Shown one piece after another: positions 729-6,896 of a stretch of 9,474 nucleotides of DNA. This DNA comes from an uncultured Anaerolineaceae bacterium. GTDB lineage: Bacteria > Chloroflexota > Anaerolineae > Anaerolineales > Anaerolineaceae. Within the stretch, counting starts at the first letter, position 1. Each line of letters starts with the position of its first letter. Location: assembly GCA_937890875.1 (NCBI GenBank), contig CALAEB010000279.1:1-9474 (forward strand), read 5' to 3'. A model generated the notes under the pieces. The model was not told the DNA's origin. It searched no databases and saw only the letters and a program-made list of their open reading frames with translations. The position numbers were made by a program, and so were the translations under genes.

Positions 729-784
729 TTCTTCCTATTGTTTTTAATCGTACTATATTTTAATAGAATTGCAGGTGTTTTTCA

Positions 785-1471
785 ATGACGCTTCTAATTG
801 CGCATGCCGGATGTGAAGGGACCGCAAACGGATCGATGGAAAGTCTTTATGCTGCTGTAAACAGCGGCGCGGATGCGATTGAAGTTGATCTACGGCTGTC
901 AAACAATAAAATCATTTATGCTCACGATATAAGCGAAGTTATATATGATGACTTCATTAAATTTGACCGGATTCTTGATTTTTTGGCAGGATCCGGCCCG
1001 CTTATCGCATGTGATATTAAAACAGAGGAGACTTTTCTTCCCGCACTTGAAACAATTGTGCAAAGGAATATGGATGAACGCGTCATTTTTTCCGGAAAAG
1101 TCCCTGTTCGGCACCGTCATACCGGCAGATATCGTTATTGCATTAATGTTGAGTGTGTCTGCAATATCGAAGACGGACAATTGCTCACAGAAAGAAATAT
1201 CCGAAGTCTGATCCGTTATTACAATCAGCACCGTTCAGAAAATCTGGCTGGTTTTAATGTTAATTATCACTGGATCACGCCCAAAATAGTCCGGCAATTT
1301 CAGGAAGCCGGTATCAATCTGTGGGTATGGACAGTCGATGATCCTGAGGCTGTCCAATGGCTTCTGGCCTGTGAAGTTTCCGGAATAACAACCAATAAAA
1401 TTGTCACGGCAATCGCTCTCGCAGCCAATAATCCTAAGAAGACGAATGGCAATTTGATGTTTGACCAATAA
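785..1471 (+). CDS. Glycerophosphodiester phosphodiesterase-like (GDPD) family protein, divergent
   Basis: A 228-residue protein with a GDPD-type TIM-barrel pattern. Family enzymes hydrolyse glycerophosphodiesters to glycerol 3-phosphate and an alcohol. Residues 7-48 carry the N-terminal signature: H7-A-G, E19, 'GADAIEVDLRLS' with E33 and D35 (metal ligands in the family), and H47-D48 (second catalytic His). D77-I-K79 sits where the family has E-x-K. Near the end 'GINLWVWTVDDPEAVQWLL' and 'VSGITTN' match the typical 'G..v..WTvn' and 'G.dGIiTD' end. Oddities: the usual HRG is HAG, so the phosphate-binding Arg is missing; the PENT-like stretch is degenerate; and the metal-binding Glu of E-x-K is Asp. 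Activity may be altered. No signal peptide is visible, so it is probably cytoplasmic. Start 785 has AGGTG at 773-777, eight bases upstream. Close relatives would be UgpQ/GlpQ-type enzymes, but a gene symbol is not justified. Confidence 0.8.
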   Translation: MTLLIAHAGCEGTANGSMESLYAAVNSGADAIEVDLRLSNNKIIYAHDISEVIYDDFIKFDRILDFLAGSGPLIACDIKTEETFLPALETIVQRNMDERVIFSGKVPVRHRHTGRYRYCINVECVCNIEDGQLLTERNIRSLIRYYNQHRSENLAGFNVNYHWITPKIVRQFQEAGINLWVWTVDDPEAVQWLLACEVSGITTNKIVTAIALAANNPKKTNGNLMFDQ

Positions 1472-1807
1472 CACAATGCGCAGGCTGTTTTTATAAAACG
1501 GATTTCAGCGAAATTAGGTGTCGGCGTTTATAAAAAATGGAATCAGTGTTCAAGAATCAGGCGCATACCGATTCCACGATTTGACCGCAGTTTTGACACT
1601 GGAGTCTTTGATTTGAATCGATGCCGATAATCCGGCAATTGAACAACGGCAGTATCATAGTTCACATTTTCAAACCATCCCGATAAATTTCATGATAATT
1701 TTACGCTTCCGCTCCGCAGGAATTTACATTTCTCCGCTATGATTCCTGCGTATGTTTATATATGCAGGAATCATAGCGCGATATTTGGTATAACACGGAG
1801 AGAACAA
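1472..1807. other. Long intergenic region ahead of the phosphonate-type importer
   Basis: 336 bases with no credible gene. It holds small overlapping inverted repeats: TGGAATC (1538-1544) with GATTCCA (1570-1576), and CAGTGT (1544-1549) with ACACTG (1596-1601), which share base 1544 and so exclude one another. A perfect -35-like TTGACA lies at 1593-1598 and a -10-like GATAAT at 1694-1699, but neither has a partner at usual spacing, so I do not call a promoter. No clear terminator follows the GDPD stop. The strongest structure is the hairpin at 1735-1778, listed separately. An in-frame ATG at 1739 inside that hairpin was rejected as the start of the next gene. Confidence 0.6.
1735..1778 (+). 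promoter_or_regulatory. Strong leader hairpin upstream of the binding-protein gene
   Basis: The arms CGCTATGATTCCTGC (1735-1749) and GCAGGAATCATAGCG (1764-1778) are perfectly complementary over 15 bp. Pairing can continue inward by five more pairs, two of them G-T, leaving a four-base TTTA loop (1755-1758). It ends 19 bases before the ribosome site GGAGAG (1797-1802). No T-run follows, so it is not an intrinsic terminator. It could be an operator dyad, a 5' mRNA stabiliser or part of a leader switch. Its left arm also has a competing upstream partner: CGCAGGAAT (1715-1723) is complementary to ATTCCTGCG (1742-1750). The structure is seen; its function is inferred. Confidence 0.6.
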
Positions 1808-2848
1808 ATGAAAAATCGTATTTTGTATGCTGTGTCGGTTTGTATATTGGTGGCATCATTCATCCTGGCGGGATTCGCCGGTGTTCAAGCGCAGAGCGAA
1901 GCCACAAAAATTGAGAAGCTGACGGTCGCGTTTGTTCCGTCAAGAGATCCGGAAGAAATCGTCACGACTACCGAGCCTTTGAAAGATTTGCTGAAGGCCG
2001 AACTGGCGAAAGCGGGTTACGAAATCGGTGAAGTCGACATCACCGTTGGAACAAACTATGAAGCTGTCGGTGAGGCGCTTTCCGCCGGAACTGCCGATGT
2101 CGGTCTGATCCCGGGTGGCACCTATGTGCTGTATGATGACGGCGCGGATGTCATCCTGACCGCTACGCGTGCCGGTCTGAGCAAAGACTCCGACAACGCG
2201 ATCGACTGGAACGATGGCCTGCCGACCGAACCGTCCGACAAACAGGCTGTTTCGTACCGCGCGCTGATCATTGCCGGCCCGTCCGAAAAAGGTCTGGAAC
2301 TGAGCGCGAAAGTGAATAACGGCGAAGAACTGACTTGGGAAGATCTGGACAGCGCCAACTGGAGCGTTATGAGCACTTCCTCCCCCGCCGGTTATATTTA
2401 TCCCACCATCTGGCTGCAGGACCGCTATGGCAAAGGGATCACCGACCTCGCCCACGCAGTGCAGTCCGATTCCTACGGCAGCGCGATGGCCAGATTGGCC
2501 GCTGGTCAGGTTGATCTTCTGGTCGGCTATGCGGATGTCCGCAGAGACAACGTCGAAAAATGGACCAGCGAATTTGGCAGAACCGCTTCCATTTGGGAAG
2601 AAACCAATGTCATTGGGGTGACGCCGGCCATTTATAACGATACGATCAGCGTCAGCAAAACTTCCAAAATTATGACCGATGAATTCAAACAGGCGCTGAC
2701 CGATGCCTTTATCAACATCGGCAATACGGAAGAAGGAAAAGCGGTCATCGCTATTTACAGCCACAATGGTTATATGCCGGCAAAATCCTCGGATTATGAT
2801 AACGAACGCAAAGCGCAGGAATTGGTTCAGGAACTGAGCTCAAAATAA
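1808..2848 (+). CDS. phnD: Phosphonate/phosphite-type ABC transporter substrate-binding protein (PhnD-like)
   Basis: A 346-residue extracytoplasmic receptor of the PhnD family, which catches phosphonates, phosphite or related oxyanions for the ABC importer encoded just downstream. Start 1808 is chosen because GGAGAG (1797-1802) precedes it and a classic signal peptide follows directly: basic MKNR, a hydrophobic stretch to about residue 24, and a likely VQA|Q cleavage near residue 28. There is no lipobox Cys, so it is not an evident lipoprotein. Family features include 'TVAFVPSRDPEEI' (39-51), 'EALSAGTADVGLIPGGTYVL' (89-108), 'SYRALIIAG' (149-157), 'STSSPAGYIYPTIWL' (189-203) with the Ser-rich ligand loop, and 'AAGQVDLLVGYADVRRD' (231-247). 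Length is slightly above the usual 300-340. A terminator follows at 2893, so this gene can be transcribed more than the transporter core. Exact ligand unknown; the symbol is given by family only. Confidence 0.88.
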   Translation: MKNRILYAVSVCILVASFILAGFAGVQAQSEATKIEKLTVAFVPSRDPEEIVTTTEPLKDLLKAELAKAGYEIGEVDITVGTNYEAVGEALSAGTADVGLIPGGTYVLYDDGADVILTATRAGLSKDSDNAIDWNDGLPTEPSDKQAVSYRALIIAGPSEKGLELSAKVNNGEELTWEDLDSANWSVMSTSSPAGYIYPTIWLQDRYGKGITDLAHAVQSDSYGSAMARLAAGQVDLLVGYADVRRDNVEKWTSEFGRTASIWEETNVIGVTPAIYNDTISVSKTSKIMTDEFKQALTDAFINIGNTEEGKAVIAIYSHNGYMPAKSSDYDNERKAQELVQELSSK

Positions 2849-2892
2849 GCAGTTCCGCCGCTGAACGCAAAGCAGGATTCAGAGATTGAATT

Positions 2893-2923
2893 GGGGCAGG
2901 GATCCGTTTCCCTGCCCTTTTTT
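2893..2923 (+). terminator. Intrinsic terminator/attenuator between binding protein and ATPase genes
   Basis: A 9-bp GC-rich stem, GGGCAGGGA (2894-2902) with TCCCTGCCC (2909-2917), has a six-base loop and is followed directly by six T (2918-2923). It lies 45 bases after the binding-protein stop and 112 bases before the ATPase start. Partial read-through would give high binding protein and low transporter core, a common arrangement for ABC importers. No convincing promoter was found between it and 3035. Confidence 0.9.
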
Positions 2924-3034
2924 GTATCGGGACTATTTCGGCGAGAGCAAGTGGCGTATAGATTTTCCGCAGACATTTGGAAAGAATGATCCAATATTGA
3001 ATTCCTGTCGGAAACCGCGAAGGATTTTTAAAAC

Positions 3035-3787
3035 ATGATTGAATTTGACCACGTTTCCAAGATTTATCCCAATGGCGTAAAAGGGTTGGATGATGTAAGT
3101 TTGAAGATCGAACAGGGGGAGTTTGTCGCGATCATCGGCTTGTCCGGAGCCGGAAAATCCACCCTGATCCGTACGATCAACCGGATGATCGATACGACGG
3201 AGGGCAGACTGACTGTCGACGGGACAGAAGTGAACATGTTAAAGGGAAAACAGCTGCGGAAATTCCGCAGAAAGATCGGAATGGTTTTTCAGTCTTTTAA
3301 TTTGGTAACCCGAACCACTGTCATTCGGAACGTGTTGACTGCCAAAGTGCCGGATATGCCGTTTCTGCGTGTTCTGTTTGGAATTTTTACCAAGGCGGAG
3401 AAATTAGAAGCCCTGGAAGCGCTGGATAAAGTGGGGATCCTTGAAAAGGCTTTTATCCGCGCGGATCAGCTTTCCGGCGGGCAGCAGCAGAGAGTCGCGC
3501 TCGCCCGGACACTGGCGCAAAATCCGCGGATCATTCTGGCGGATGAACCGGTGGCCGCATTGGATCCGGTGACAGCGAAGCGGGTGATGGATGATTTCAA
3601 ACGGATCAATCGGGATATGGATATTTCGATCATTATGAATATTCATCACGTGGAACTGGCACTGAGTTATGCGGAACGGATTATCGGCATCCGGGAAGGA
3701 AAGATTGTTTATGACGGCAAAGTTTCGGATGTGACCGGCGAAGTGTTGGATGCGATCTATATGGAAAAAGCGGACGGGATCAAATGA
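3035..3787 (+). CDS. phnC: Phosphonate/phosphite-type ABC transporter ATP-binding protein (PhnC-like)
   Basis: A 250-residue cytoplasmic ATPase that powers import through the two permeases downstream. All nucleotide-binding motifs are intact: Walker A GLSGAGKST (35-43), Q-loop MVFQSFNLV with Q86, signature LSGGQQQR (146-153), Walker B IILADEP with catalytic E171 (166-172), D-loop AALDP (174-178), and H-loop NIHHVELA with H204. The segment after the Q-loop ('NLVTRTTVIRNVLTAKV') and the 'NIHHVELALSYAERIIGIREGKIVYDG' end are typical of PhnC rather than of sugar or amino-acid ATPases. Length is normal for the family. The ribosome site GAAGGA (3019-3024) stands ten bases before the ATG. The stop overlaps the next start by four bases (ATGA, 3784-3787), indicating translational coupling. 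Confidence 0.92.
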   Translation: MIEFDHVSKIYPNGVKGLDDVSLKIEQGEFVAIIGLSGAGKSTLIRTINRMIDTTEGRLTVDGTEVNMLKGKQLRKFRRKIGMVFQSFNLVTRTTVIRNVLTAKVPDMPFLRVLFGIFTKAEKLEALEALDKVGILEKAFIRADQLSGGQQQRVALARTLAQNPRIILADEPVAALDPVTAKRVMDDFKRINRDMDISIIMNIHHVELALSYAERIIGIREGKIVYDGKVSDVTGEVLDAIYMEKADGIK

Positions 3788-4605
3788 GTATTTATGAAAA
3801 GTTGTTCCCGCCGCGGGAATTGGAATTAAGCAGCGGGGAAAAGATTAAAGAACCGCGGTCGCGGACGCTGTGGATTCTGCTGCTGTTGGCAGCGGCGATG
3901 GTTGTTTCAGCGAAAGTCACCGGATTTGACCTCGCCACCATCCTGGAGCGCGGAGAACAGTTTTTCGTTATTGTCGGACAGATGTTTCCGCCGAAATGGA
4001 GTTACAGGAACCGCATTTTGTCCCCTTTGCTGGATACGATCAAAATGTCGCTGCTGGGCTCTGCGATTGGATCCTTGCTGGTGGTTCCTTTTTCTGTGAT
4101 CGCGTCAAGCAATATTGTCAAAAACCGGGGGATATTGTTTGCCGTAAGACTGTTTCTGAGCATTGTCCGGACGCTTCCCACTTTGGTTTCTGCGTTGATC
4201 GCGACGTATATGTTCGGGTTCGGCATGTTGGCCGGGACCTTTGCGATTGCGGTGTTCACGTTTGCTTATGTTGGAAAACAGTTGTATGAACTGATCGAAA
4301 CGGTCGATATGGGCGCTTATGAGGCAATGGAGGCCATGGGGGCCGGTAAGCTGCGCAGTTTTTTGACCGCCATCCTGCCGCAGGTGATGCCGGCGTATCT
4401 TTCGACCTGTTTGTTCTGTTTTGAGGGAAACGTGCGGTATGCGTCCATTCTGGGTTATGTCGGAGCCGGCGGTTTGGGTGTGATCCTGAACGAGAAAATT
4501 GGCTGGAGAGAGTACAGCAGTGTGGGCATGATCCTGATCGCTTTATTCCTTACCGTGGTCATCATCGAAGCGCTCAGCCATTACCTCAGAACAAAACTGA
4601 CTTAG
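3784..4605 (+). CDS. phnE: Phosphonate/phosphite-type ABC transporter permease, first subunit (PhnE-like)
   Basis: A 273-residue inner-membrane permease. Hydrophobic segments are visible at about 28-43, 88-108, 119-143, 148-165, 203-213 and 246-264. The cytoplasmic coupling loop that contacts the ATPase is clear at 176-200 (MGAYEAMEAMGAGKLRSFLT, then AILPQ), an EAA-type motif with the usual Glu-Ala and Gly. It is followed by 'EGNVRYASILGYVGAGGLG' (214-232), the characteristic PhnE stretch. Its start overlaps the ATPase stop (ATGA). An AGGAG overlapping its own stop serves the next permease. Together with that gene it should form a heterodimeric channel, as in operons with two phnE copies. Confidence 0.9.
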   Translation: MSIYEKLFPPRELELSSGEKIKEPRSRTLWILLLLAAAMVVSAKVTGFDLATILERGEQFFVIVGQMFPPKWSYRNRILSPLLDTIKMSLLGSAIGSLLVVPFSVIASSNIVKNRGILFAVRLFLSIVRTLPTLVSALIATYMFGFGMLAGTFAIAVFTFAYVGKQLYELIETVDMGAYEAMEAMGAGKLRSFLTAILPQVMPAYLSTCLFCFEGNVRYASILGYVGAGGLGVILNEKIGWREYSSVGMILIALFLTVVIIEALSHYLRTKLT

Positions 4606-4618
4606 GAGCGCGGGCGAT

Positions 4619-5428
4619 ATGAACGAAAGAATTTTAAAAGCATACGAACAAGAACCGCGCCGCTGGGGCTGGAAGCTGCTGGTGGCGTTGATTTGCGCTG
4701 CGCTGATCGCATGGTCAGGCTCAACCATTCAGTGGAGTGCGATCACCCATCAAGGGCTGGAAATTGCGGGCAGGATTTTGAACGGGATTTTTCATCCGGA
4801 CAAAGAACTGTTATTTAACTTGACGAAATCCAGCGTCTTCTACCTGCTGCTGGAAACGGTCTGCATCGCATTCCTGGGGACCATCGTCGGGGCTGTTCTG
4901 GCGGTTCCCTTTGCGTTTATTTCCGCGACCAACATTGTCCCCCTGCCGCTCAGCCTGATCGGACGGACGATTATTATGGCTGTCCGGACGGTTCCGCCGT
5001 TGATTTATGGATTGATGTTTATTCGTGTGACGGGGCCGGGGCCTTTCACCGGGCTTTTGACGATGTCCCTGTGCTCGATCGGGATGGTGTCCAAAATGTA
5101 TATTGAAGCGATCGAAGATTTTGATATGAGGATATTGGAATCTTTGGATGCCTGCGGATGCGGATTTTTCCAGAAGATCCGCTATGGGATCATTCCGCAG
5201 CTTTTTCCGGATTTTATGTCTACCATCATCTACCGGTTTGATATGAATCTGCGCGATGCCACCGTGCTCGGGATCGTCGGTGCCGGCGGTATTGGCGCAC
5301 CGTTGATCTTTGCCATGAATGCCTACCGTTGGAATCAGGTGGGCGCGCTCCTGGCCGGGCTGATCGTTTTGGTGATGGCGGTGGAGTTCTTTTCAACGAA
5401 AATCCGCGTCAAGTTGGCCAGAGGGTGA
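4619..5428 (+). CDS. phnE: Phosphonate/phosphite-type ABC transporter permease, second subunit (PhnE-like)
   Basis: A 269-residue inner-membrane permease, paralogous to the preceding gene. Hydrophobic segments lie near 18-33, 73-103, 112-135, 142-158 and 241-257. The coupling loop is at about 162-195 (EAIEDFDMRILESLDACGCG), a divergent EAA motif in which the usual Ala-x-Gly-Ala is Cys-Gly-Cys-Gly. The conserved 'LRDATVLGIVGAGGIGAPL' (211-229) follows. AGGAG (4604-4608) overlaps the previous stop and lies ten bases before ATG 4619, so the two permeases are translated from one message. It is the last gene of the importer block. A palindromic repeat begins seven bases after its stop, and no classic T-run terminator is seen there. 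Confidence 0.9.
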   Translation: MNERILKAYEQEPRRWGWKLLVALICAALIAWSGSTIQWSAITHQGLEIAGRILNGIFHPDKELLFNLTKSSVFYLLLETVCIAFLGTIVGAVLAVPFAFISATNIVPLPLSLIGRTIIMAVRTVPPLIYGLMFIRVTGPGPFTGLLTMSLCSIGMVSKMYIEAIEDFDMRILESLDACGCGFFQKIRYGIIPQLFPDFMSTIIYRFDMNLRDATVLGIVGAGGIGAPLIFAMNAYRWNQVGALLAGLIVLVMAVEFFSTKIRVKLARG

Positions 5429-5830: not shown

Positions 5831-6896
5831 ATGACCAATGAAGAAAAATGGAACGCGGTTGCGACAAATAACGCGGGCTATGATGGAAAATTTTACTAAG
5901 ATCGGAAGAGCGTCGTGTTACTACGCGGTAAAATCAACCGGGATTTATTGCCGCCCATCCTGTAAGTCGAAACTGCCGGATCCCGCGAATATTCTGTATT
6001 TTGATACCAAAACAGATGCTGAAAATGCCGGTTACCGGCCCTGCAAACGCTGCCGTCCCGATCTGATCGATTATCAGCCTGTTCAGAACCTTGCGCGGCA
6101 GATGAAACAAATCATTGACAGCGAATTTTTGGATAAAGCCCATGTTTTTCAGGAACTGAAAAAGTTAGGCGTAACGCCTAAACGATCCATCGAAATTTTC
6201 AAAGAACAATTTGGCGTGACGCCCGGCGCATATGCGGACAGATTGCGCATGAATGAGGCGCGCTGCCGGCTGTCAGAATCCGATATGCCCATTCTTGAGA
6301 TCGCATATACGCTTGGTTTTGAGAGCATTTCCGCTTTTTACTCATTTTTCGGCCGATATACGGATATGACTCCCGGCGAATTTCGCAGAAATGCCCAAAT
6401 TTCTTCCGGCATGGAAGCAGAAGCAGAAACTTCTTTTGTTTATCCTGCAGCCTTGGGAACAATAACGATTACGGCGGATAGGGATGCGATTACGGGGATA
6501 CGCTTTGGAGAGCCTGTTATGCCCTTCAAATACGGGAGAAATATACTGACCGATATGGCGGCGGAACAGCTTGCGGAATATTTCAGCGGAACAAGAAGCG
6601 CATTTACAGTGCCTTTGCGCCCGGCGGGAAGCTCATTTCAGCAGTCGGTATGGTCCGCCTTGCGGGACATTCCTTACGGAAAAACCAACAGTTATAAACA
6701 GATCGCTGAGCGCATCGGAAGGCCCACTGCCAGCCGTGCGGTGGGTATGGCAAATAACAGGAATCCCATCCTGATTATGATTCCCTGCCATCGGGTAGTC
6801 GGGGCGGATGGCTCGCTGGTGGGCTATGCAGCGGGATTGCCAATAAAACAACGCTTGTTGGCGTTGGAAAGGGAAATTTTCAACCATTCCGCCTGA
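5831..6896 (+). CDS. ada: Ada-type methyltransferase/transcriptional activator; frame broken by an adapter-like insert
   Basis: Bifunctional alkylation-damage repair protein and AraC-type regulator. The true start is ATG 5831, after GGTGG. It reads MTNEEKWNAVATNNAGYDGK, then F-Y, before hitting a stop inside an insert at 5898-5922. Omitting those 25 bases joins it in frame to the rest and gives 346 residues, a normal Ada length. In restored numbering, the N-terminal Ada domain has the four zinc cysteines C32, C36, C63 and C66 ('GIYCRPSC', 'PCKRC'). The N-terminal domain demethylates phosphotriesters through one of these in characterised Ada. The AraC-type HTH domain spans about 75-178 ('ILEIAYTLGFESISAFYSFFGRYTDMTPGEFRR'). 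The C-terminal O6-methylguanine methyltransferase spans about 199-342 with catalytic C311 in 'IPCHRVVGADG'. Without the correction, a caller would start at 5838 and give a false N-terminus containing KIGRASC, the translated adapter. A terminator lies about 100 bases downstream. Confidence 0.93.
5898..5922. other. Probable Illumina adapter insert with a 4-base duplication (artefact)
   Basis: Bases 5899-5918 read AGATCGGAAGAGCGTCGTGT, identical to the first 20 bases of a standard Illumina TruSeq read-through adapter. The host sequence TACT occurs on both sides (5894-5897 and 5919-5922). Removing 25 bases leaves ...TTTTACTACGCGG..., which restores the conserved Ada sequence F-Y-Y-A-V-K-S-T-G. 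25 is not a multiple of three and exactly accounts for the shift between the frame of ATG 5831 and the rest of ada. Confidence 0.95.

Follow-up and report, generated by a model that had tools for sequence, protein, structure and literature searches.

An Illumina adapter prefix inside the ada gene of an Anaerolineaceae contig and the false frameshift that it creates

We found that the DNA-repair gene ada in the window (the whole stretch of DNA analysed here, a contig of 9,474 nucleotides from an uncultured Anaerolineaceae bacterium) contains an exact 20-base prefix of an Illumina TruSeq adapter, which breaks its reading frame. This prefix is almost certainly a laboratory and assembly artefact; most likely it arose by read-through of short fragments, was left untrimmed, and came to lie inside the gene when an adapter-tailed contig end was joined to its true continuation. 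The first-pass annotation had ascribed a false frameshift in ada to an embedded adapter; the exact prefix, the genome-wide excess of such prefixes and an intact protein on record (P0001) all agree with that claim, and our sequence, assembly and database comparisons yielded no evidence against the artefact itself. Recognizing the adapter averts a false claim, either of a broken ada or of an Ada protein with a new N terminus.

The adapter insert at the ada locus

The first 20 adapter bases, which had been reported from the sequence alone, are present on the forward strand without a mismatch (Table 1). The 20-mer, AGATCGGAAGAGCGTCGTGT, consists of the 12-base common part AGATCGGAAGAG followed by the first eight bases of the reverse-specific TruSeq part; both the common and the specific parts are printed in a study of how sequencing adapters contaminate databases of microbial genomes (Moeller et al. 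2024, BMC Genomics 25:1033, PMC11536531). The insert starts at the first base of the adapter, directly behind genuine sequence, and the match is exactly 20 bases long, as the following position is T in the window and A in the adapter. It is internal to the contig, at 5.9 kb and 3.6 kb from the two ends.

Table 1 Features of the ada locus in the window
Feature	Positions	Strand	Basis
Illumina TruSeq adapter prefix, 20 bases	5899..5918	+	Exact match to AGATCGGAAGAGCGTCGTGT, zero mismatches
TACTA, left copy; final genuine bases ahead of the adapter	5894..5898	+	Sequence
TACTA, right copy; genuine sequence restarts with five bases repeated	5919..5923	+	Sequence
True ada start: ATG 5831, 22 codons, then TAA	5831..5899	+	Equals P0001 residues 1–22
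Artefactual 352-residue ORF: starts out of frame, runs through translated adapter and continues as genuine Ada	5838..6896	+	ORF list
Whole ada gene: Ada zinc-binding, AraC-type HTH and O6-methylguanine methyltransferase	5831..6896	+	Pfam; P0001

The extra sequence at ada amounts to 25 bases, made up of the 20 adapter bases and the repeated TACTA. An earlier marking of the insert at 5898–5922 is an equivalent way of delimiting the same 25 bases; the duplication reported with it, TACT, is indeed there, but it is the five-base TACTA rather than four bases long (six bases, if the last T of the adapter is counted as common). The frame from ATG 5831 encodes MTNEEKWNAVATNNAGYDGKFY (22 residues) and then ends at the stop codon TAA at 5897–5899, the last A of which is the first base of the adapter. 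The rest of the gene lies in another frame, which runs without a stop from ATG 5838 to 6896 and encodes 352 residues, including TKIGRASCYY. Thus the ATG at 5831 that had been proposed as the correct start is in place, with residues 1–22 identical to those of P0001 ahead of the insert, and a gene call at 5838 does carry the translated adapter, KIGRASC, as had been foreseen.

The gene beneath the insert

The best database match to the 352-residue ORF was P0001, an Ada protein of 346 residues that is listed on a single contig of 2,160 bases, and hence not on the window's own contig of 9,474 bases. P0001 is identical to the translation of the window both upstream (residues 1–22) and downstream of the insert, and an uninterrupted form of ada is therefore present in a database record, at the protein level. 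No single frame of the window yields all 346 residues, so we read P0001 as a record of this genome or of one nearly identical to it, perhaps from a different assembly of the same sample. When a second copy of the ada region was sought in the source assembly, the window itself was the sole match.

We aligned P0001 and the window ORF with 13 relatives chosen from the best 120 of 6,179 matches, a comparison with Ada homologues that the first-pass annotation had suggested. All 13 relatives, like P0001, begin with a normal, MTNEEK-type start; the window ORF alone deviates, and its first residues show no common pattern with the other rows. By profile search, the Ada_Zn_binding domain scored 81.6 bits in the window ORF (profile positions 16–65), 105.1 bits in P0001 (1–65) and 107.7 bits in P0002 (1–65), and the scores of the AraC-type HTH, Methyltransf_1N and DNA_binding_1 domains were nearly equal in the window ORF and P0001. 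The domains of Ada are all present and in order (PF02805, AraC-type HTH, PF02870 and PF01035, by Pfam search). Five cysteines (C32, C36, C63, C66 and C311 in P0001 numbering) are invariant across the 15 rows, the window ORF included; by the roles known for E. coli Ada, we take the first four to be the zinc-site cysteines and C311 to be the acceptor in PCHRV.

These results bear on whether the protein might genuinely be translated as a 352-residue form from ATG 5838, with an alternative N terminus. In favour of such a protein, 5838–6896 is an uninterrupted frame in which the zinc-site cysteines are retained. Against it, its first 24 or so residues recur in none of the 14 other aligned sequences, the opening 15 positions of the Ada_Zn_binding profile have no counterpart in it, and KIGRASC is translated adapter. 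We consider a genuine N terminus of this kind to be so improbable as to deserve almost no weight. In the wider search, 57 of 61 genomes (the source genome included) matched the 352-residue query, mostly in its HTH or methyltransferase part. Among the near-full-length matches listed from other genomes, 12 of 14 start at query residues 25–28, past the translated adapter, and the remaining two at residues 13 and 14. In the database search that gave P0001, some listed hits cover up to 98% of the query, their pairwise alignments extending into its first residues.

The gene beneath the insert is an ordinary ada, and there is nothing unusual about it once the insert is recognized. It encodes an Ada-type methyltransferase and regulator that, at 346 residues in P0001, is akin to the relatives of 338–354 residues that are common among the matches listed. 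The Ada protein of this organism is most likely normal and working. The intact P0001 and the normal starts of its relatives bear out the earlier warning that a 'pseudogene' or 'novel N-terminus' claim would be wrong here.

The surroundings of ada were compared with those in G007, a genome of the same genus as the source genome (G000). The window carries genes for a phosphonate-binding protein, an ATPase and two permeases at 1739–5428, and the phosphonate-transport genes (approximately 1681–5426) match contig C422 of G007 (L298) at 81–85% DNA identity. This contig was tried as an intact comparison for ada and discarded: its likeness to the window extends no further than about 5426, and no ada gene comes next on it. 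No match to the phosphonate-binding protein was obtained at E <= 0.001 in the 12 other genomes of the genus searched, and no full-length Ada was among the matches listed from 13 other genomes of the genus. The ada gene may be patchily held or horizontally acquired in this genus, or the contig may be misbinned.

Adapter sites and split genes across the assembly

The source assembly comprises 3,056,141 bases in 665 contigs and is 80.75% complete. A search of the whole of it for the 20-mer, another check put forward in the first-pass annotation, returned six exact copies in 3.06 Mb, against 5.6e-6 expected; allowing two mismatches added none. For the exact common 13-mer we counted 18 copies where 0.09 would be expected, and backward-pattern controls gave no match in this assembly for either the 20-mer or the 13-mer. 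Shuffled versions of the window contained at least one 13-mer match with up to two mismatches in 40 of 200 cases, a result with little bearing on the exact 20-mer. Our search patterns start at the first base of the adapter, so that copies without that base would escape them; the pattern GAACTCCAGTCAC gave no additional site in the source assembly, but one site in G007 (L308) lacks the first adapter bases. The earlier inference of at least one adapter-derived error is true but understated, for the assembly contains about 18 sites, of which six lie within contigs.

Twelve of the 18 sites reach the last base of their contig, with the adapter pointing outward as a tail of 13–38 bases. Among the exact 20-mers, four of the six are at contig ends and two are internal. 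Over all 18 sites the TruSeq end type is CGT... in 7 and CAC... in 10, and one site is too short to be assigned. The six internal sites are on C279, the window's own contig (20 bases), C563 (45), C553 (31), C38 (21), C14 (15) and C190 (15), and the lengths of these internal prefixes, 15–45 bases, largely overlap those of the tails. Five of the six lie more than 300 bases from both contig ends, and the one on C563 is 281 bases from one end. The two 15-base sites, on C14 and C190, are supported by no more than the 13-mer and two further bases, but each coincides with a change of frame in a gene. One tail in this assembly (L305, on C148) extends into the four bases AGTT, an apparent sample index, and two tails in G007 (L306 on its contig C279, and L308 on C581) extend into ATGTCA, likewise an apparent index. 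These fit TruSeq indexes 14 and 15, in which case the two genomes would appear to stem from different libraries of one study.

The five-base direct repeat around the insert in ada resembles what some transpositions leave behind, and a real insertion would make the gene a pseudogene, carrying a short piece of DNA with a five-base target duplication whose likeness to the adapter is coincidental. We regard this as very improbable. By chance, 1.7e-8 copies of the exact 20-base prefix would be expected in the window (both strands; equal or actual base frequencies), in keeping with the earlier statement that such a match is not expected by chance, and six copies are present in the assembly, four of them at contig ends. 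Moreover, the inserted 20 bases are all adapter, too few for a transposon and without likeness to a mobile element, and P0001 represents the same protein in intact form.

At the other internal sites, we searched the protein pieces to the left and right of the adapter on C563, C553, C14, C190 and C38 separately against Pfam. On C563 (L299), the adapter separates flagellar rod and FlgE/F/G D1 domains from the FlgEFG C-terminal domain. C14 (L302) has positions 1–94 of Peptidase_M20 on one side, and the M20 dimerisation domain together with M20 positions 58–205 on the other, and on C190 (L303) positions 4–105 and 136–268 of BPD_transp_2 flank the adapter. C553 (L300) carries what appears by eye to be a single permease gene, probably of the ABC type, neither piece of which had a Pfam match. 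On C38 the ORFs to either side of the adapter are different: PSP1 was matched by the right-hand ORF, and the left-hand ORF had no Pfam match. At least four genes are thus split by adapter in this assembly: ada, a gene of the FlgE/F/G type, an M20 peptidase and a BPD_transp_2 permease. Any frameshift reported from this assembly is open to doubt; pseudogene and frameshift calls from it need a prior check for adapter, and the assembly should be flagged.

An adapter that sits between two genuine pieces of sequence would also be left by a chimeric library molecule, in which ligation had placed adapter between two DNA fragments, so that the join physically existed. On contig C287 of G007, the sequence left of the adapter is not recognizable by eye as the beginning of the argininosuccinate-synthase-like gene to its right; this would fit a junction of unrelated pieces. 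Random ligation, however, would join unrelated loci, whereas at ada, C563, C14 and C190 the sequence on both sides comes from one gene or gene family, and the adapter pieces are truncated prefixes of varying length rather than whole adapters. A chimera therefore seems improbable to us.

The joining of adapter-tailed contig ends, which we favour, is proposed on two grounds: the overlap in length between internal prefixes and end tails, and the fact that the two sides form one gene or family at four sites. At ada, the genomic insert of the library fragment would have ended at 5898, and its reads would have continued into the adapter. The adapter bases would then have entered the assembly as a 20-base tail, like the 13–38-base tails at 12 other contig ends, and scaffolding or gap closing would have set the next piece, starting five bases earlier (TACTA), right behind that tail. 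A five-base overlap was considered as a rule of such joins and rejected: the flanking repeat at C563 is GAAC, 4 bases (GTGGGAAC, 8 bases, with adapter bases counted), and none was evident at C553, where comparison of the flanks by eye found no clear repeat.

Adapter contamination beyond this assembly

Among 147 genomes of the family, the exact 20-mer is present in four, the source genome included: G000 (6 copies), G007 (14), G067 (1) and G096 (1). The backward 20-mer control gave none in all 147. In G007, a 45-base adapter prefix on C287 (L304; approximately 763–807, reverse strand) precedes an argininosuccinate-synthase-like frame, as judged by eye, and possibly marks a join of two different loci.

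In public collections we counted at least 128 sites on viral contigs and at least 122 on genome contigs, spread over at least 120 stretches in each collection. Of the viral-contig sites listed, 126 of 128 point outward from a position no more than 200 bases from a contig end, and one is internal; for the genome-contig sites listed, the corresponding figures are 119 of 122 and three. One IMG/VR contig (L165) bears an adapter copy of at least 58 bases near its end that points inward, unlike 126 of the 127 other viral-contig sites listed. Internal copies of the 20-mer are rarer among the public-collection sites listed (4 of 250) than in the source assembly (2 of 6), which argues against a large general rate of internal error, not against its existence. 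On balance, we lean towards the view that adapter prefixes deep inside contigs systematically give rise to false frameshifts and 'pseudogenes' in short-read drafts, and that this has drawn little notice. The present sites suggest that filters that trim contig ends only would miss part of the contamination: 5 of the 18 sites would survive them.

Among the papers listed by a literature search, none dealt, by its title or the beginning of its abstract, with adapters embedded in contigs or with misassembly through them, and the translated-adapter string RSEERRVGKEC was not found in a text search of the literature. The kind of artefact is already published, as the accessible part of PMC11536531 makes clear; what our analysis contributes beyond the first-pass annotation is the extent, about 18 sites and at least four split genes. 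The system described in that part is likewise one of AGATCGGAAGAG with a forward- or reverse-specific continuation, concentrated at contig ends and in excess over a Poisson expectation. Adapters are counted there wherever they occur, and those described and removed are at most 300 bases from contig ends. The ada case, of a sort that this part of the paper does not treat, differs in lying deep inside a contig and within a gene, where it produces a false frameshift.
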